From Marivivens aquimaris (GTDB lineage: Bacteria; Pseudomonadota; Alphaproteobacteria; Rhodobacterales; Rhodobacteraceae), in contig NZ_JADBGB010000001.1 in the NCBI RefSeq assembly GCF_015220045.1, forward strand, positions 2,969,001-3,033,000: a stretch of DNA of 64,000 nucleotides, read 5' to 3'. Made by a program: the position numbers and the translations under genes. Position 1 is the stretch's first letter; every line of letters begins with the position of its first letter. The notes under the pieces were generated by a model, which worked only from the letters and a program-made list of their open reading frames with translations, did no database searches and was not told where the DNA came from. Below are positions 3,036-13,392 of this stretch, one piece after another.

Positions 3036-4183
3036 TGACGCTCGATCTGAATGATCCGCAGACGTTGATCGTGCTAGCAGCGGGTGCCTTGGCCCTGTTC
3101 GTCATCGTCCTGCTGCTGATGGTCGTAAAGCGGGCAGGGCAATCGGCGCACATGGCGCAGATGGTGGCGAGCCAGATGGGCCATGTGAACCAGCGCGTAC
3201 AAATGCTTTCGGACGGGCAGCAGCAGCTCGTCGGCGGTCTGTCGTCGGTGTCCGAAGCGCAGGCCAAATCGCAGGCGCATATGCTCAAGCTGATGGAAGC
3301 GCGGCTCCAGCAGGTGAACGAGGTCGTGAACCGGAACCTCACGCTCAGCACCAAAGCCACGGCGCAGAGCCTTGGTGAGCTTCAGCAACGCCTGAAGACC
3401 ATCGACAAAGCGCAGGAGAATATCACCAAACTGTCGGGCGACGTGCTCGGGTTGCAAGACATTCTCTCGAACAAGCAAACTCGTGGTGCGTTTGGTGAAA
3501 TCCAGTTGCAGGACATCGTGTCCAAAGCCCTGCCGAGCGACAGTTATCGCCTCCAGCACACGCTCTCGAACGGCAAGCGCGCCGACTGTCTGATCCACCT
3601 GCCCAACCCGCCAGGGCCGATTGTGATCGACAGTAAATTTCCGCTCGAACCATACGAACGGATGCGCAAAGCCGAGACCGAGCAGGAGAAGCTGGAAGGC
3701 GTGCGCCAGATGCGGATCGCGGTGCGTAACCACATCCGTGCGATCAGCGAGAAATACATCATCGAGGGCGAGACCGCTGACGGCGCGATCCTGTTTTTAC
3801 CGTCCGAGGCCGTCTACGCGGAGATCCACGCGAACTTCTCTGAACTGGTCCGAGAAGGGTTTGCTGCGCGCGTCTATATCGTTTCGCCGACAACATGCAT
3901 GGCCACGCTAAACACGATGCGCGCGATCCTGAAGGATGCGCGTATGCGCGAACAGGCGGGTGCCATTCGTCAGGAGTTATCGAAGCTTTATGGGGACGTA
4001 GATCGCCTTGGCTCTCGCGTGGAAAACCTCGACCGCCACTTCAACATGGCGGCCAAGGATATTGCCGAGATCAAGATTAGTGCCGAAAAGGCAGGGAAGC
4101 GGGCTCAGCGGCTCGACAACTTCGATTTCGAAGAACTTGCCCCCGAAACCAATCCGTCAGTCGTCCCGCTGGTGCAGGATTAA
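3035..4183 (+). CDS. rmuC: DNA recombination protein RmuC
   Basis: 382 aa. RmuC-family proteins limit recombination at short inverted repeats; the biochemistry is poorly known and a nuclease-like fold is predicted. The sequence has one N-terminal membrane segment (about residues 10-30, LIVLAAGALALFVIVLLLMV), a long Gln/Lys-rich coiled coil to about residue 140, and the RmuC domain with GAFGEIQL, DSKFPLEPYERM and FLPSEAVYAEI. The start was placed at the ATG overlapping the mutL stop, implying translational coupling; an in-frame reading further upstream lies inside mutL. Its TAA overlaps the end of the convergent chrR gene by 3 nt. Confidence 0.93.
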   Translation: MTLDLNDPQTLIVLAAGALALFVIVLLLMVVKRAGQSAHMAQMVASQMGHVNQRVQMLSDGQQQLVGGLSSVSEAQAKSQAHMLKLMEARLQQVNEVVNRNLTLSTKATAQSLGELQQRLKTIDKAQENITKLSGDVLGLQDILSNKQTRGAFGEIQLQDIVSKALPSDSYRLQHTLSNGKRADCLIHLPNPPGPIVIDSKFPLEPYERMRKAETEQEKLEGVRQMRIAVRNHIRAISEKYIIEGETADGAILFLPSEAVYAEIHANFSELVREGFAARVYIVSPTTCMATLNTMRAILKDARMREQAGAIRQELSKLYGDVDRLGSRVENLDRHFNMAAKDIAEIKISAEKAGKRAQRLDNFDFEELAPETNPSVVPLVQD

Positions 4184-4833
4184 ATCTTCACGAACGGCTG
4201 CGCGAGGCGCGGCAGGAACGAATTGAACTTGAGCGGCGCATCGGTCGCGGCAAGGCAGATGCAGTCCAGCCCGTCCTCGGCAATCGGCGTGTGGTCCAGT
4301 TCTTCGTTCGCGACTTCGATGTCACCAGTGCCGAAGCGGTCGGTTTCATCCTTGAACGCGCCTTGCAGAACCAGCGTCAGTTCCAATCCACGATGACCGT
4401 GGTCAGGCACCGACGCACCAGCCGGAATGTGCAGCAGGCGAACGGTCGCACCGCCGTCGGTCGGCAGGATCATCTGCTTCACACCGCCGCCAACGCGGCG
4501 CCAACGCACGGCTTCGACGTCGCCGCCGACATAGTTGGCGAGCGGAGTCGGAAAGATACCTGCACGCTCGGCTTTGATCTGCACTTCCTCTGGCGAGTCC
4601 GTCAGGGCGGCGAGCGCAATGTCCAGTGCATCGGCACTCATGGCCATCGCATCGGTGCGCATCATGACTTCGCCGCCAACGGCTTCGAATTCGGCCAGTT
4701 GGGCACGGCATTCGTCACACAGCGAAATGTGCGTCGCCACGACGAGGTTGAACGCTTCAGGCAGGGTGCCCGCAGCGTAACCCATCAGCAGGGAATTGGT
4801 GAGGTGGTGTTTGATATCTTTCATCGGCTTCAT
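4180..4833 (-). CDS. chrR: Zinc anti-sigma factor ChrR (cupin type) of RpoE
   Basis: 217 aa. ChrR holds the ECF sigma factor RpoE inactive and releases it in response to singlet oxygen in Rhodobacter sphaeroides. The N-terminal ZAS anti-sigma domain has H10 and the HxxxCxxC motif (H35, C39, C42). The C-terminal cupin has the second zinc set, H145, H147, E151 in PDHGHRGLE and H181 in ELDHT. These match the eight zinc ligands known for R. sphaeroides ChrR at a constant offset of four residues. The start at 4833 gives an ATGA overlap with rpoE, so the sigma and its antagonist are translationally coupled. Very high confidence in identity; regulation by singlet oxygen is inferred from the family. 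Confidence 0.96.
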   Translation of the reverse strand: MKPMKDIKHHLTNSLLMGYAAGTLPEAFNLVVATHISLCDECRAQLAEFEAVGGEVMMRTDAMAMSADALDIALAALTDSPEEVQIKAERAGIFPTPLANYVGGDVEAVRWRRVGGGVKQMILPTDGGATVRLLHIPAGASVPDHGHRGLELTLVLQGAFKDETDRFGTGDIEVANEELDHTPIAEDGLDCICLAATDAPLKFNSFLPRLAQPFVKI

Positions 4834-5378
4834 CTCATCGCATGACGCAAGCGGTCCAGCGCCAACCTTATCCGTGATTTGATCGTGCCCAGCGGCAGGC
4901 CAGTTTCTTCGGCAATCTGCGCATGGGTCAATTCGCCAAAGTAGGCTTTTTCGACCAGCTCTCTTTGTTTGTCGGGCAATTCGGCTATCGCCTTGCCCAG
5001 TCGTTCGGTGTCTTGCTGGAGCGCGACCTGTTCTTCCTGGTCCGGCTCCGCTTCGGGTCCCCAAGGCAGATCCTCGGGTTCGGGTCGTCTTGCGCGGCGG
5101 ATGATGTCGATCTGCCTGTTGCGCGCGATCGTGAAGATCCAAGTGGACACACTCGCACGGGCAGGATCGAACAAGTGTGCTTTGCGCCACATCGTGGCCA
5201 TCACATCCTGAGCAATCTCTTCTGCCTGATCCGGAGCCGCGCCGCCCCGCACCAAGAAACCTTTCACACGCGGTGCGAAATGGCTGAACAGGCGGGCAAA
5301 TGCCTGCTTGTCCTGATGTTCACGGATCGCGTTAACTTCTGCGACCCATGCCATTCGACCGTTGTTTTCGTTTACCAC
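4830..5378 (-). CDS. rpoE: ECF RNA polymerase sigma factor RpoE (ChrR-controlled group)
   Basis: 182 aa from the chosen GTG start. Region 2 (AFARLFSHFAPRVKGFLVRGG, then AEEIAQDVMATMWRKAHLFD and STWIFTIARNRQID) and region 4 (ELPDKQRELVEKAYFGELTHAQIAEETGLPLGTIKSRI) are complete; there is no region 3, as in all ECF sigmas. The pairing with ChrR assigns it to the singlet-oxygen/organic-peroxide response group. The GTG at 5378 has an AAGGA 8-9 nt upstream and is preferred; an ATG at 5354 (MAWVAEV) and more distal ATGs are possible. A candidate autoregulatory sigma-E promoter lies at 5486-5514. Confidence 0.93.
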   Translation of the reverse strand: MVNENNGRMAWVAEVNAIREHQDKQAFARLFSHFAPRVKGFLVRGGAAPDQAEEIAQDVMATMWRKAHLFDPARASVSTWIFTIARNRQIDIIRRARRPEPEDLPWGPEAEPDQEEQVALQQDTERLGKAIAELPDKQRELVEKAYFGELTHAQIAEETGLPLGTIKSRIRLALDRLRHAMR

Positions 5379-5485
5379 CCGTTTTTCCTTGCTCTTCCGA
5401 TTGGCCAACGGCTGCCGCATTGCGCGGACGTGCATTGGTATGGCCACATTATCGGCACGGGTATCGACGAGGTTCAACATACTTC

Positions 5486-5514
5486 TTCTACGGAAGTCGC
5501 GCCAAAGTGGATCA
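5486..5514 (-). promoter_or_regulatory. Candidate sigma-E promoter of rpoE-chrR
   Basis: On the minus strand TGATCC (5514-5509) is followed after 18 nt by TAGAAG. TGATCC is the -35 element I recall for Rhodobacter RpoE targets, including the autoregulated rpoE promoter. The predicted start site would leave a leader of about 100 nt to the GTG at 5378. Confidence 0.6.
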
Positions 5515-5529
5515 CCGCGTTTTTTATTT

Positions 5530-5559
5530 TCATCCAAGCTGCATGAACTCACGTAAGTC
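5530..5559 (+). promoter_or_regulatory. Candidate sigma-E promoter of the FAD oxidoreductase operon
   Basis: TCATCC (5530-5535), 18 nt, then TAAGTC (5554-5559). This has the same 18-nt spacing as the divergent site and differs from TGATCC by one base. It sits about 22 nt upstream of the ATG at 5582, with a GGAG at 5571-5574. Confidence 0.55.
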
Positions 5560-5581
5560 TTCAAAAATACGGAGAACTTTG

Positions 5582-6883
5582 ATGAACGTGCACGTCCCCC
5601 GCCGCATCCCGAGCAAAGTCGCCATTATCGGCGGTGGTATTTCGGGTATGGGCGCCGCCTACAAACTGGCGGAGACGCACAACGTCACGCTCTTCGAAGC
5701 GGAAAAAGACCTCGGCGGTCATGCCCGCACCCGCATGGGCGGACGCGATGGTGACCAGTCGGTTGATACCGGTTTCATCGTTTTCAATCACGTGAACTAC
5801 CCGCACCTGGTCGAGCTGTTTCGCGAGTTGGAAGTGCCGACTGTCAAATCAGACATGAGCTTTGGTGCATCGCTGGGTGACGGTCGGTATGAATACGCGC
5901 TGAAAAGCCTTCGCGCGATTTTCGCGCAGCCGATGAACGCGTTGAATCCCAAGCACCTCCGCATGGTACGCGATATCATGCACTTCAACGCGAACGCGCT
6001 GGACGTTGCGCGGTCCGATCGCACGATGACGGTCGAGGAGATGCTCAAGAAACTCGGCACCGGAGAGTGGTTCCGCAACCGCTACCTCCTCCCGCTGTCG
6101 GGTGCGATCTGGTCGACGCCAGTTGAAAAAATCGCCGACTTCCCCGCCTATGCGATGATGCAGTTCTTCGAAAACCACGCGCTGCTGCACCACACTGGAC
6201 AACACCAGTGGTACACGGTGGCCAGTGGCTCGCGCAGCTATGTGTCGCGTTTGGAAAACCGTCTGAACCTGAACAACGTCGATCTACGCCTTGGGGCTTG
6301 GGTAGAAGGCGTGCGCCGCACCGGTGCTGGTGCTGAGGTGCGTGTTCACGGTGGTGAGTGGGAGCACTTCGACGAAGTGATCTTTGCCACCCATTCGGAT
6401 GACAGCCTCCGTCTACTGGCTGATCCGACCGCTGCGGAACAGGAGGCGCTCGGCGCGATCAAGTATCAGCCGAACCGCGTCGTCCTGCACTCGGACGCGG
6501 ACATCATGCCCAAGCGCCGCGTTGTCTGGTCGTCGTGGAACTACACCGAAATGCACGGCAAGCAGACCGATCAGATCGACCTGACGTATTGGATGAACAA
6601 CCTCCAGCCGTGGCTGAAGAAGGACGAGCTGTTCGTGACCCTCAACAGCACCCGCACCATCCGCGAGGAGCTGATCTGGGACGAAGTGACCCTGCGCCAT
6701 CCGGTTTATGATCTCGCGGCGCTCGAAGGGCAAAAGCAGGTTGCTGCGATCAACGGTCAGAACCGCACGTGGTTCTGCGGCGCATGGATGAAGAACGGTT
6801 TTCACGAAGACGGTCTGTCGAGCGCGATTGACGTGGTCAACGCGCTGCAATCGGCTCAGGAATTCAGTGTGGCGGCAGAATGA
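5582..6883 (+). CDS. FAD-dependent amine-oxidase-like oxidoreductase (sigma-E operon, UfaD-like)
   Basis: 433 aa flavoprotein. The N-terminal Rossmann motif VAIIGGGISGMGAAYKLAETHNVTLFEAEKDLGGHART is followed by TGFIVFN, typical of NAD(P)-binding amine-oxidase/desaturase-like proteins often annotated as cyclopropane-fatty-acid-associated. In R. sphaeroides the homologous position next to the RpoE regulon is occupied, from memory, by RSP1091 (UfaD), needed for furan fatty acid synthesis and controlled by RpoE. That function is plausible here but not proven by sequence. The ATG at 5582 has a GGAG RBS. It overlaps the next gene (ATGA) and heads a four-gene operon. Confidence 0.85.
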   Translation: MNVHVPRRIPSKVAIIGGGISGMGAAYKLAETHNVTLFEAEKDLGGHARTRMGGRDGDQSVDTGFIVFNHVNYPHLVELFRELEVPTVKSDMSFGASLGDGRYEYALKSLRAIFAQPMNALNPKHLRMVRDIMHFNANALDVARSDRTMTVEEMLKKLGTGEWFRNRYLLPLSGAIWSTPVEKIADFPAYAMMQFFENHALLHHTGQHQWYTVASGSRSYVSRLENRLNLNNVDLRLGAWVEGVRRTGAGAEVRVHGGEWEHFDEVIFATHSDDSLRLLADPTAAEQEALGAIKYQPNRVVLHSDADIMPKRRVVWSSWNYTEMHGKQTDQIDLTYWMNNLQPWLKKDELFVTLNSTRTIREELIWDEVTLRHPVYDLAALEGQKQVAAINGQNRTWFCGAWMKNGFHEDGLSSAIDVVNALQSAQEFSVAAE

Positions 6884-7635
6884 ACGGTATTCAACATATC
6901 GAGGGAAAGACCTTCCACGGCAGGCGGGGCGACATCAAGAATGCCTTCTCCTACCACGTGGATTACGTCCTGCTTGATCCCGAGCTAGAGGTCGATGCGC
7001 CGTCGCTGTTCGGCCGCAACAAGAGTGCAATGGTTGCCGTCCATGACCGCGATTACGGCGGTGAGCCAAAGAACGGCACAGGCGTTGCTTGGGCGCGACA
7101 GGCGCTGGGCGAAGCGGGTATCCAGCTGGGCGGCCGTATTCTGCTGCTCGCGCAGCCGCGGGTGCTGGGGCATGTGTTCAATCCGGTCAGCTTCTGGCTC
7201 TGCCATGATGAATGCGGAGTGCTGCGGGTCGCGATTGCAGAGGTCACGAACACCTTTGGCGATCGTCACAGCTACCTCTGTCATCACGATAACTTTGCAC
7301 CGCTGGGAAGTGGCGGCTGGGTCGAAGCGCAGAAGATTTTCCACGTCTCGCCCTTCCAGCCGATCAACGGGACCTACCGGTTCCGGTTCGGTGTGGAGGA
7401 CAACAAGGTCAATATCGTCATCGACTACCGACATGCTGAAGGCGGGGTGGTCGCGACGCTGGTTGGTGAGCGCAAACGGCTTACCAACTCCGGCATCGTC
7501 CGGACGGCCATCAAACGCCCGTTGGGGTCGATCCGCGTACTCGCGCTGATCTACTGGCAGGCGCTCAAACTCAAGTTCAAGGGCGCTCTGTATCGCAGCA
7601 GACCAGAGCCGCCTGCTCAAGAAGTCAGTCGTTAA
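6880..7635 (+). CDS. DUF1365 family protein
   Basis: 251 aa, DUF1365. These proteins regularly sit beside FAD amine-oxidase-like genes and cyclopropane-fatty-acid synthase-like methyltransferases, suggesting a role in lipid modification; the biochemistry is unknown to me. Visible motifs: FSYHVDYVLLDPE near the N-terminus, HVFNPVSFWLC near residue 95, EVTNTFGDRHSYLC and KIFHVSPFQPINGTYRFRF. The ATGA overlap with the preceding flavoprotein supports joint expression. Confidence 0.88.
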   Translation: MNGIQHIEGKTFHGRRGDIKNAFSYHVDYVLLDPELEVDAPSLFGRNKSAMVAVHDRDYGGEPKNGTGVAWARQALGEAGIQLGGRILLLAQPRVLGHVFNPVSFWLCHDECGVLRVAIAEVTNTFGDRHSYLCHHDNFAPLGSGGWVEAQKIFHVSPFQPINGTYRFRFGVEDNKVNIVIDYRHAEGGVVATLVGERKRLTNSGIVRTAIKRPLGSIRVLALIYWQALKLKFKGALYRSRPEPPAQEVSR

Positions 7636-7641
7636 GGTGTC

Positions 7642-8199
7642 ATGATGATTATCGGTATTCTGGTCGGCCTCATTATCGCGGTCGTCGTCGCCTTGCTGTG
7701 GCAACGATACGCAAGTTTCGTCTCGCAAAAGCTGGACCACTATCAGTCTGGCCGCCCGTTCGATATCCGCCGCGATCTCAACGGACCCATCCTGAGCGAG
7801 GGGCTGATCTACGGGCCGCTCGGAAGGGTGTCGTCGCGCTTTGTCGGCAATTTCTCGGTTAATTGGGACGGTGATCGCGCCATCATGATCGAACGTTTCC
7901 GCTATGACAGCGGCAACACGCAAGACCGCCGTTGGGACCTCGTTCTGCACCCTGATGGTCGGATTTCCGCCGAAGCAGAGGACCTCGTCGGCACCGGACA
8001 TGGCCGCGTCGCTGGATCGGCGCTTGTGCTGCACTATCGTATTAGACTGACCGAGGATGCGGGTGGGCATGTGCTGTCCGTCACGGACTGGATCTATACG
8101 ACCCCGGACGGTGTCCTCATGAATAGATCGCAATTTAGAAAGTTCGGGCTGAAAGTTGCTGAACTCGTCGCGACGATGAGGCCCGCCGGAGAGTATTGA
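7642..8199 (+). CDS. DUF3833 family membrane-anchored protein
   Basis: 185 aa. One N-terminal hydrophobic segment (about residues 2-22) is followed by a soluble domain with LNGPILSEGLIYGPLGRVSSRFVG and DWIYTTPDGVLMNRSQFRKFG, resembling DUF3833 (lipoprotein- or lipocalin-like). No lipobox is evident. Six nt separate it from DUF1365 and one nt from the next SDR gene, so it belongs to the sigma-E operon. Function unknown; a lipid-binding or transfer role is a guess from context. Confidence 0.75.
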   Translation: MMIIGILVGLIIAVVVALLWQRYASFVSQKLDHYQSGRPFDIRRDLNGPILSEGLIYGPLGRVSSRFVGNFSVNWDGDRAIMIERFRYDSGNTQDRRWDLVLHPDGRISAEAEDLVGTGHGRVAGSALVLHYRIRLTEDAGGHVLSVTDWIYTTPDGVLMNRSQFRKFGLKVAELVATMRPAGEY

Positions 8200-8200
8200 G

Positions 8201-8929
8201 ATGGATGATTGGGCAGGCAAGCGGTACTGGATTATTGGAGCCAGCGAGGGTTTGGGGCGCGCTCTTGCGCAAAAGCTGAGCAAGAGCGGCGTAAAGCTCG
8301 TACTCTCGGCGCGGAGCGAGGATCGGCTGAAAGAACTGGCCGCTGAACTGCCCGCGCACGCCGATGTGGTGACCATTGATGTGACCGATATCAAAAGCGT
8401 CGAAAAGGCTGCCAAAGAGGCAGGCGCCATTGACGGCATGGTCTACCTCGCCGGTGCATACTGGCCGATGGCCGCGACAGAATGGGACAATGAAAAAGCC
8501 GAACTGATGGGCGACACCAACTTCCTTGGCGCGATGCGCTGCGTGGGTGCGGTGCTGCCGACCATGGTGCAAAAGAACCAAGGCCACATCATCCTGACCT
8601 CGTCGCTGACAGCCTACCGCGGCCTTCCTGGTTCGATCGGCTACGGTGCGTCCAAGGCCGCGCTTCTGTCGCTGGCCGAAGGTATGCGCGCCGACCTCAA
8701 GGAAACCAACGTCAACGTTCAGATCGTCAATCCCGGGTTCATCAAAACCCGCCTGACTGACAAGAACGACTTCAACATGCCAATGATGATGGAGCCGGAA
8801 GACGCGGCTGCTGAAATCTTCGAGCACATGAACTCCGATGATTTCAAGAAGTCCTTCCCCGCACCGATGGGCATCATGCTCCGTGCGTCGCAGTTCCTGC
8901 CGGACTGGCTCTATTACAAGCTCGTCTGA
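8201..8929 (+). CDS. SDR family NAD(P)-dependent oxidoreductase
   Basis: 242 aa short-chain dehydrogenase. The cofactor motif is WIIGASEGLGRALAQKLS (TGxxxGxG variant), and catalytic residues lie in SSLTAYRG...SIGYGASKAALLSLAEGMRADL (Ser, Tyr-x-x-x-Lys). Substrate unknown. It is the last gene of the rpoE-divergent operon and is equivalent in position to the SDR I recall at the end of the R. sphaeroides RSP1091-1087 operon, although no MFS transporter gene is present here. Confidence 0.88.
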   Translation: MDDWAGKRYWIIGASEGLGRALAQKLSKSGVKLVLSARSEDRLKELAAELPAHADVVTIDVTDIKSVEKAAKEAGAIDGMVYLAGAYWPMAATEWDNEKAELMGDTNFLGAMRCVGAVLPTMVQKNQGHIILTSSLTAYRGLPGSIGYGASKAALLSLAEGMRADLKETNVNVQIVNPGFIKTRLTDKNDFNMPMMMEPEDAAAEIFEHMNSDDFKKSFPAPMGIMLRASQFLPDWLYYKLV

Positions 8930-8960
8930 CTTGCTCTGGATCAAAGCCTGAGCACTCTAC

Positions 8961-8998
8961 AAGGGCCATCCTGTTCTACGAAGGAACAGGAGGCCCTT
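8961..8998 (+). promoter_or_regulatory. Hairpin sequestering the DUF3775 ribosome binding site
   Basis: The arms 8961-8976 and 8984-8998 pair over 15 bp with only A8968 bulged; the loop is TACGAAG (8977-8983). The Shine-Dalgarno AGGAGG (8988-8993) is wholly inside the 3' arm and the ATG at 8999 follows the stem directly. No T-run follows, so it is not a simple intrinsic terminator. A translational switch (thermosensor, protein or small-RNA controlled) is inferred. Confidence 0.7.
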
Positions 8999-9322
8999 AT
9001 GCATATCAGCGCTGACAAAGTTGCCGAAGTCATCATCCTCGCCCGCGATGCACGTCGCGGCGCGCCGGAAATGGATCAGTTCATCAACACGCTGACCGAA
9101 GACGAACAGGCGGGACTTGTTGCGGTCTTCTGGATCGGTCGCGGGAGCTTTGATGCTGCCGAATACGACGAAGCCTACGCCACTGCAGTGAACGAGGCAT
9201 CGACGCCCACCACGACCTACCTTGGCGGCTCGCCACATCTCGCTGATCACTTGGAGGCGGGCATGGACGCGCTCGGGGTCGACGTGAATGCAGAGGAAGA
9301 CGATCTCTACCGTTCGGTATGA
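8999..9322 (+). CDS. DUF3775 family protein
   Basis: 107 aa acidic cytoplasmic protein of the DUF3775 family. Recognisable segments are DKVAEVIILAR near the N-terminus, INTLTEDEQAGLVAVFWIGRGSFD in the middle and TTYLGGSPHLADHLEAGMDALG near the C-terminus. No catalytic motif or function is known to me. The start has a strong AGGAGG but the whole RBS is folded into a 15-bp hairpin. It lies between the sigma-E operon and fadH. Confidence 0.8.
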   Translation: MHISADKVAEVIILARDARRGAPEMDQFINTLTEDEQAGLVAVFWIGRGSFDAAEYDEAYATAVNEASTPTTTYLGGSPHLADHLEAGMDALGVDVNAEEDDLYRSV

Positions 9323-11410
<2,088 letters not shown>

Positions 11411-11565
11411 TTACAGGCATCTCGACGGATTCCATAAGATAAGTCGCTAAAATTCCGTTCACCATAGCATGGGCGGAATCCGCGATATTGTCAGGCAACG
11501 GCCCAGATTGTGCCCGATTTGGACACGATAACCAGCCTGAGGAATTGGTAGAGAGGACCACGCGA

Positions 11566-12471
11566 ATGGATCGCCTCACAGAGATGGAAGCGTTCGCCAC
11601 AGTTGTGGATCAGGGTGGATTTACAGATGCAGCCAAGAAGATGGGCATCTCGAAATCGGCCGTATCCAAGCACGTGTCGTCCCTTGAGGCGCGACTTGGC
11701 GCACGCCTGCTGAACCGCACCACGCGCCGTGTCAGCCCGACCGAAATCGGCCTTGCGTATTATGACCGCGCTCGCCGCGTCCTCAACGACGCAGGCGAAG
11801 CCGACGCGCTGGTCACGTCGATGCAATCCGCGCCGTCGGGTCTGCTCCGCATCAGCGTTGCAACGGACTTCGGCGTGAACCATCTCTCGCCCGTGCTGAA
11901 CGGGTTCCTTCAGGAGTTCCCAGACATCACTGTCAACATGGTGTTGAACAACCGCTACGTGGAGCTGATCTCCGAAGGGTTCGACATGGCGATCCGTGTG
12001 GGCGAATTGGAAGATAGCACGCTGCGTGCCCGCAAGCTCACCGACACGACGCTGCGCATGATCGCCTCACCAAACTATTTCCAACAGTATGGTCGTCCGC
12101 AGAAGATCGACGATCTGAACGACCACAAGCTGCTGCATTACTCAAACCAAGCGAACAACGCGGTCTGGAAAATCACTGCGCCGAGCGGCGAAAAGCGTCA
12201 GGTTCGCACTGCCGGTTGGCTGACGGTCAATGATGGCCAGTCGCTGCTGAACGCATGTGTTTCGGGCCTCGGCATCGCATACCTGCCGTCGTTCCTCTAT
12301 GCGGATGCGATGAAGCGGGGGCTGGTGCAGGAAGCCATTCCGGACCTTCCGGCAGAGAAGCAGGGCATCTATGCCGTCTACCCGCCGGGTCGTTTCACCC
12401 AGCCAAAGGTGCGCGCGTTTATCGATTTCCTCGTGAACTCGTTTGCGGACAAGGGCCCCGATAACTGGTGA
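11566..12471 (+). CDS. LysR family transcriptional regulator
   Basis: 301 aa. The N-terminal winged HTH is MDRLTEMEAFATVVDQGGFTDAAKKMGISKSAVSKHVSSLEARLGARLLNRTTR (residues 1-56). The effector domain has GLLRISVATDFGVNHLSPVL, FDMAIRVGELEDSTLRARKL and GLGIAYLPSFL, the pattern of the LysR subgroup related to DsdC/aminoethylphosphonate-type small regulators. The start at 11566 has GAGAGGA upstream. Targets unknown; fadH 155 bp upstream is a candidate. It converges, touching end to end, with the OmpA-like gene. Confidence 0.92.
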   Translation: MDRLTEMEAFATVVDQGGFTDAAKKMGISKSAVSKHVSSLEARLGARLLNRTTRRVSPTEIGLAYYDRARRVLNDAGEADALVTSMQSAPSGLLRISVATDFGVNHLSPVLNGFLQEFPDITVNMVLNNRYVELISEGFDMAIRVGELEDSTLRARKLTDTTLRMIASPNYFQQYGRPQKIDDLNDHKLLHYSNQANNAVWKITAPSGEKRQVRTAGWLTVNDGQSLLNACVSGLGIAYLPSFLYADAMKRGLVQEAIPDLPAEKQGIYAVYPPGRFTQPKVRAFIDFLVNSFADKGPDNW

Positions 12472-13392
12472 TCAGTTACTAAGCGCGATAGCCTCGACCC
12501 GCCGGTTGGCGTCGCGGCCTTCTTGCGTCAGATTTGAGCTGCGGGGGGCGAGGTAGCCCATGCCCTGCGCATCCATGCGGTCACGCGAAATACCGTAGGT
12601 GCCTGCAAGGCGCTCTAGCACAGCGCGGGCACGTGCTTTCGACACGTCGATGTTAGCATTGAGCGAACCTTGGCTATCGGTGTGGCCGACCAGAGCTATC
12701 CTTACCGTTGGGTGAGATTCAAGATAGGAAGCGAGATCGGCGAGCGACTGGTAGGTGTCGCCGCTCAGTTCGGAAGAGCCGGTCTCGAACGTCAGATCCC
12801 AAAGCTCCACATGACCGGTCGTCATAAAGGCGCTGGCCATGTCGTCCGCTACCGGTTCCTGTTCGGCAGCGACAACAGGTGCGGCTTCGCTGTCGGCTAC
12901 TGGCTCGTCGTTTAAACGGCCGATGCGGATAACTTCGACATACCCAGCGCCGAGCGTTTTGCTGACGAACAGCACCACCGTTTCGCCTGCCTTCTTTGCA
13001 AGGAGATAGCGGTAGTCACCGAGGTCAACGAGCATCGCGGGTGGCGGCGTCAGGTCCAGACCGAAGCGGAAATCGAAACCGCCACAGCTATCGGTGCGGC
13101 ACTCGAAGCCGATTGTGTATCCGTCCTCGGTCAGTTGCTGCCGCAGTGGGGCGATAAGCTGAAGCGTTGTGAGGCGGTCGGCATCAATGCGCCAGACCTG
13201 CCGCGCGACATTGCCGGCGGTGTCTTCTGTGCTCATACCGCGGTCGATATTCCAAGGGCCGGTTGGGACTTCGAAGCTCGTAGCGGCTTCGGTATCCTCG
13301 TAAACAAGCGTCGCGTTCTCGGGCAGAGAAATCGCAGCCGCCATGGAGGGCAGCAACATAGATATGAGCGCAATGAAAAGCCGGATCGCCAC
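12472..13392 (-). CDS. OmpA family protein
   Basis: 306 aa. GTG start with GGAG upstream, then a signal peptide (MAIRLFIALISMLLPSMAAA). The central region (about 25-190) is unrecognised and contains two cysteines (ECRTDSCGG). The C-terminal OmpA/MotB-like peptidoglycan-binding domain covers about 200-306: FETGSSELSG, RIALVGHTDSQGS and SKARARAV. Probably a periplasmic or outer-membrane protein tethering to peptidoglycan. Last gene of the cinA-GNAT-ompA set, 3 nt after the acetyltransferase stop. Confidence 0.88.
   Translation of the reverse strand: MAIRLFIALISMLLPSMAAAISLPENATLVYEDTEAATSFEVPTGPWNIDRGMSTEDTAGNVARQVWRIDADRLTTLQLIAPLRQQLTEDGYTIGFECRTDSCGGFDFRFGLDLTPPPAMLVDLGDYRYLLAKKAGETVVLFVSKTLGAGYVEVIRIGRLNDEPVADSEAAPVVAAEQEPVADDMASAFMTTGHVELWDLTFETGSSELSGDTYQSLADLASYLESHPTVRIALVGHTDSQGSLNANIDVSKARARAVLERLAGTYGISRDRMDAQGMGYLAPRSSNLTQEGRDANRRVEAIALSN

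Follow-up and report, generated by a model that had tools for sequence, protein, structure and literature searches.

A gene for a DUF3775 protein lies in a 64,000-nucleotide stretch of the Marivivens aquimaris genome (the window, whose numbering is used throughout). It is preceded by a hairpin that takes in its Shine-Dalgarno (SD) sequence and, further upstream, by a Crp/Fnr-type box and a co-directional SDR gene (Table 1). The stop codon of the SDR gene is followed after 31 nucleotides by the stem and after 69 nucleotides by the DUF3775 start. A full-text literature search under the name DUF3775 yielded just one paper, an insect study.

Table 1. Features of the DUF3775 leader and the adjoining genes, in window coordinates
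Feature	Position	Strand	Basis
Upstream co-directional SDR gene, presumed source of read-through	8201..8929	+	Open reading frame and domain match; 45 of 95 loci have an SDR relative immediately upstream
Crp/Fnr-type (FnrL-like) box TTGCTCTGGATCAA; family consensus TTGCGCCAGATCAA	8931..8944	+	Homologous leaders
G at box column 16 (predicted -33), the third position in a degenerate -35 element that lies 17 bp ahead of the -10	8946..8946	+	76 of the 77 leaders with a box have G
5′ arm of hairpin (bulged A8968)	8961..8977	+	Folding
Predicted -10 hexamer CATCCT, within the 5′ arm	8967..8972	+	Columns of boxed leaders, class II register
Loop of the hairpin, with transcription predicted to start near C8979 for a box centered at -41.5	8978..8982	+	Promoter geometry
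3′ arm of hairpin, SD inside	8983..8998	+	Folding
SD AGGAGG	8988..8993	+	Sequence
DUF3775 gene, 107 amino acids, PF12616	8999..9322	+	Pfam match, E 3.7e-26

The hairpin and the Crp/Fnr-type box

A first-pass annotation of the window had described a hairpin with 15-bp arms, a bulged A8968 and the SD wholly in the 3′ arm, and both sequence and folding confirm that description. Positions 8961-8967 pair with 8992-8998 (7 bp) and positions 8969-8976 with 8984-8991 (8 bp), and the ATG (8999-9001) follows directly after the stem. ViennaRNA adds the pair U8977-G8983, giving 16 predicted pairs over 8961-8998 and a loop of 5 nucleotides. The fold of 8955-9015 reaches -28.2 kcal/mol (z -5.45), and over 8930-9060, the span that the annotation had proposed for a folding check, z is -4.03; in neither case was any of 200 shuffles equally stable. 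In RNA with both arms, opening AGGAGG is predicted to cost 18.2 kcal/mol. Elsewhere in this genome, 263 SD-bearing starts sampled from 464 kb have a median cost of 3.4 and a maximum of 17.5 kcal/mol, and six of them reach 10 kcal/mol or more, with the qualification that these starts, which do not include that of DUF3775, come from a crude open reading frame caller and that some of the costly ones look miscalled. We regard the predicted burial of the SD in RNA containing both arms as well supported. A repeated element was ruled out, since 8945-9010 is single copy in the genome, and a search of 4000-13000 against Rfam gave no match to a known riboswitch or other RNA family up to E 1.

The most conserved element of the leader is the Crp/Fnr-type box and not the hairpin, as judged from 95 homologous leaders. 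A search for DUF3775 homologues covered 61 genomes, 28 of which had a match, and a contig search gave at least 80 loci, together at least 108; the 95 leaders are 108 loci minus five remote homologues (L023, L025-L028) and eight duplicates over the last 60 upstream bases. TTG-N6-RTCAA within 110 nucleotides of the start occurs in 77 of them, against a shuffling expectation of 0.24. TTG and TCAA are fixed by this search pattern, and the free box positions favor TTGCGCCAGATCAA. Of the 77 boxed leaders, 71 have C or T at column 17; the preferred bases at columns 37, 38 and 42 are C (49 leaders), A (59) and T (57), and columns 18-36 hold at most 0.45 bit of information. With the box centered at -41.5, columns 16, 37, 38 and 42 fall at -33, -12, -11 and -7, the arrangement of a class II promoter whose spacer is 17 bp long. 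The box of the window, TTGCT-CTGG-ATCAA, fits TTGAT-N4-ATCAA or an accepted variant (TTGCG-N4-ATCAA is listed as an FnrL site at hemN), and the genome carries an FnrL gene (NF045989, score 434 bits, cut-off 300). From this geometry, the transcription start of DUF3775 is predicted to lie in the loop of the hairpin, near C8979. At the level of sequence the stem that buries the SD is shown to overlap, through its 5′ arm, the core of a conserved, predicted promoter of the Crp/Fnr class II type.

Two predicted kinds of RNA over one start codon

Because the predicted -10 hexamer lies within the 5′ arm and the predicted start in the loop, only transcripts coming in from upstream should form the hairpin, and an mRNA begun at the gene's own conserved promoter would be without it. 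Two sets of folding predictions bear on this distinction. First, RNA from 8979 folds weakly (z +1.46); its SD is predicted to open at 1.8 kcal/mol versus 18.2 in read-through RNA, and to be unpaired at 37 °C with a probability of 0.545 versus 0.002. Secondly, in the boxed leaders an SD opening cost of 8 kcal/mol or more is predicted for 12 of 77 read-through RNAs versus none of 77 own-promoter RNAs, and in 11 of these 12 the SD pairs mainly with sequence upstream of the predicted start.

Our results favor, with moderate confidence, the hypothesis that the leader is a translational insulator in which an FnrL-type promoter is nested. At low oxygen, active FnrL would direct transcription of DUF3775 from a start near 8979, in the loop, and the resulting leader of about 20 nucleotides would leave most of the SD accessible. 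Polymerases running on from the upstream SDR operon would produce a transcript containing both arms; its SD would be locked and DUF3775 untranslated. The gene would then follow its own promoter, under oxygen control, and would be silent while the neighboring operon is on.

The first-pass annotation had made conservation of the pairing in homologous leaders a touchstone, and here the outcome is divided. The stem sequence of the window is present in only two of the 95 leaders, those of its own genome and of the closest relative (G003), whereas in a subset of leaders other arm sequences rebuild stems that bury the SD. Native arms also pair better than swapped arms, and SD burial is individually significant (p≤0.05) in 15 of the 95 leaders with 600 shuffles, the count used here, and in 17 with 100 shuffles. 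Leaders L099 and L100 have a layout unlike that of the window, with a stem TTATCTG...CAGATAA just before the SD and the SD itself uncovered.

However, the insulator hypothesis should be treated with some caution, since several observations weigh against it. The better pairing of native arms depends on a minority: in 38 of 57 cases the native value is higher than the median of its row. Moreover, 80 of the 95 homologues lack individually significant burial although the box is kept in 77. Nor does SD burial clearly depend on an SDR gene upstream: the 45 loci with one have a mean z of 0.72 and seven significant leaders, the other 50 loci 0.33 and eight. Mean z is 0.69 in 23 divergent and 0.46 in 72 co-directional loci, a comparison of little weight because the rough call of upstream direction, by longest open reading frame, misread the window's own SDR gene. 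At the locus itself the left half-box TTGCT matches TTGAT imperfectly, and in own-promoter RNA the SD is predicted to be just about half unpaired.

Some of these observations would also suit an incidental, lineage-specific inverted repeat, in which promoter and SD are complementary by chance and DUF3775 is no more than a target of FnrL. The stem sequence is restricted to the window's genome and G003, and the 80 leaders without individual significance point the same way; on the other side stand the native arms and the rebuilt stems. We consider this explanation rather unlikely.

The first-pass annotation had instead read the hairpin as a translational switch, that is, a stem in DUF3775's own mRNA that temperature, a ligand or a protein would open. 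The stable stem, the whole SD in its 3′ arm and the ATG directly next to it speak for such a switch, and the burial that it presupposes is upheld by folding. The thermal part of the idea is not supported: at all temperatures between 10 and 75 °C, less than 3% of the SD is predicted to be exposed; melting in the physiological range is not predicted, and a free-standing thermosensor was rejected as unlikely on this modeling. Against an own-mRNA switch of any kind stand the lack of an Rfam match, the presence of the stem sequence in just two of 95 leaders and the conserved promoter over the 5′ arm, overlooked in that annotation, which predicts a start in the loop and an mRNA without the hairpin. 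Such a switch is accordingly judged unlikely.

A strong stem 31 nucleotides past the SDR stop codon could also serve as a terminator or 3′-end stabilizer of the SDR operon. This is very unlikely: the SD sits in the 3′ arm with the ATG directly after it, no T-run of the kind expected of an intrinsic terminator follows the stem, as the first-pass annotation had rightly pointed out, and no terminator-like site was called on the plus strand in 8700-9500. A DNA operator bound by a dimeric repressor would explain a long inverted repeat around the predicted start, but the arm sequences differ among stem-keeping relatives, which is ill-suited to one fixed operator and makes this the least probable explanation by our estimate.

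Neighboring genes and a second hairpin

The first-pass annotation had placed the hairpin beside an RpoE stress operon. The assignment of rpoE and chrR is supported by a minus-strand pair at 4180-5564, an ECF sigma factor with sigma-70 regions 2 and 4 and a ChrR protein (TIGR02451, above the NCBIfam cut-off); the link to DUF3775 is positional only. Beside this pair lies a divergent plus-strand set of amine oxidase, DUF1365, DUF3833 and SDR genes; in R. sphaeroides such a set belongs to the RpoE oxidative-stress regulon. Between rpoE and the plus-strand operon are two divergent RpoE-type promoter-like sites (5486-5514, minus strand; 5530-5558, plus strand), each with two mismatches to the motif TGATCC-N18-TAAGA. 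Over the window as a whole this motif shows no enrichment (70 matches with at most three mismatches versus 89 by chance), and the two sites are suggestive by place only.

DUF3775 as a general member of RpoE operons was rejected. The gene upstream varies among loci, an SDR gene standing just upstream in only 45 of 95, and membership of an RpoE operon is therefore not a general property of DUF3775; its link to stress is a local one. Of the 50 loci that lack a neighboring SDR gene, ten were scanned: the nearest long upstream reading frame was RmuC (L053, L055, L092), accA (L093), a cyclase (L107) or an acyltransferase (L063), and in the other four it matched no Pfam family at 1e-8.

A second SD-burying hairpin occurs on the minus strand of the same genome (L124:9709-9749; G000:C1:2509709-2509749), with an opening cost of 17.5 kcal/mol. 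It follows what we assume to be a malate synthase-like gene and precedes one that is presumably glutaryl-CoA dehydrogenase-like, and a promoter-like sequence, TTGAAA-N15-GATAAA, overlaps its 5′ arm. Three of seven genomes of the genus have it, namely the window's own, G003 (15.1 kcal/mol) and G001 (18.8 kcal/mol), the last with changed yet pairing, compensatory bases at both stem ends. It is missing in the other four congeners and in 20 relatives of other genera with an assigned start; this survey took in 30 loci of 58 matching family genomes, with a start assigned in 21, among which only the window's own genome has the hairpin.

The second hairpin raises the chance that the design has been used repeatedly. 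In the wider form of our hypothesis, Rhodobacteraceae would repeatedly evolve anti-SD arms in the core of FnrL-type promoters, the same element acting as promoter in DNA and as silencer of read-through in RNA. DUF3775 would be made only at low oxygen, when FnrL fires, and be off while the neighboring operon is transcribed. The arrangement before the glutaryl-CoA dehydrogenase-like gene, with its compensatory changes in a congener, is similar. We offer this wider form tentatively, as possible but short of probable.

If it is true, a promoter core that doubles as an anti-SD arm would let differently regulated genes stand head to tail without a terminator in compact genomes, and operon read-through seen in RNA-seq need not mean protein. 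The logic of certain T4 genes would be carried to a bacterial chromosome, and DUF3775 would gain a first testable regulator, low oxygen acting via FnrL.

Comparison with known systems

In the IS10/IS50-type protection of transposase genes from impinging transcription, the start of the gene is hidden by folding of the read-through RNA. The DUF3775 leader is similar in that its start would be hidden in read-through RNA, and differs in that the IS10/IS50 case concerns transposon ends and has no FNR promoter. By titles and abstracts we recognized no precedent on a bacterial chromosome, which is no proof of absence.

As a promoter, the element resembles those of FnrL in Rhodobacter, with which it shares the box sequence, the predicted class II geometry and the presence of an FnrL gene. 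R. sphaeroides hemN is listed among FnrL sites with TTGCGcaggATCAA (PMC2908626, Table 2), and the R. capsulatus fnrL site is TTGTCCCAAATCAA (PMC4634722). Unlike at the present locus, no SD hairpin on a promoter is mentioned in the available excerpts of three accounts of the FnrL regulon (PMC2908626, PMC4634722, PMC5398030), nor is DUF3775. Table 1 of PMC2908626, on the predicted FNR core regulon of alphaproteobacteria, includes a "hypothetical protein" set (2905) without an R. sphaeroides member, and this set could be DUF3775.

The mechanism we propose is closest to that of phage T4 homing endonucleases, which hide the ribosome-binding site in RNA structure. The structure of I-TevI forms only on early and middle RNA, and its late promoter starts an RNA that is, on sequence, too short to form it (PMC2988022). 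The set described there includes I-TevI, I-TevII, I-TevIII, segB, Aeh1 mobE and T4 e and soc. As in that set, the SD of DUF3775 is predicted by folding to lie in a stable stem that needs RNA initiated upstream; the co-directional SDR gene, with no terminator called in between, could supply the long RNA, and the conserved promoter with its predicted start at 8979 the RNA without the 5′ arm. Unlike the T4 genes, DUF3775 resides on a bacterial chromosome, its stem sequence turns over between species, it has a Crp/Fnr-type box with degenerate -35 and -10 elements and no phage late promoter, and its case is known here from sequence and folding. In conclusion, the DUF3775 leader is, by analogy, an arrangement that would work like the T4 set without being a member of it.
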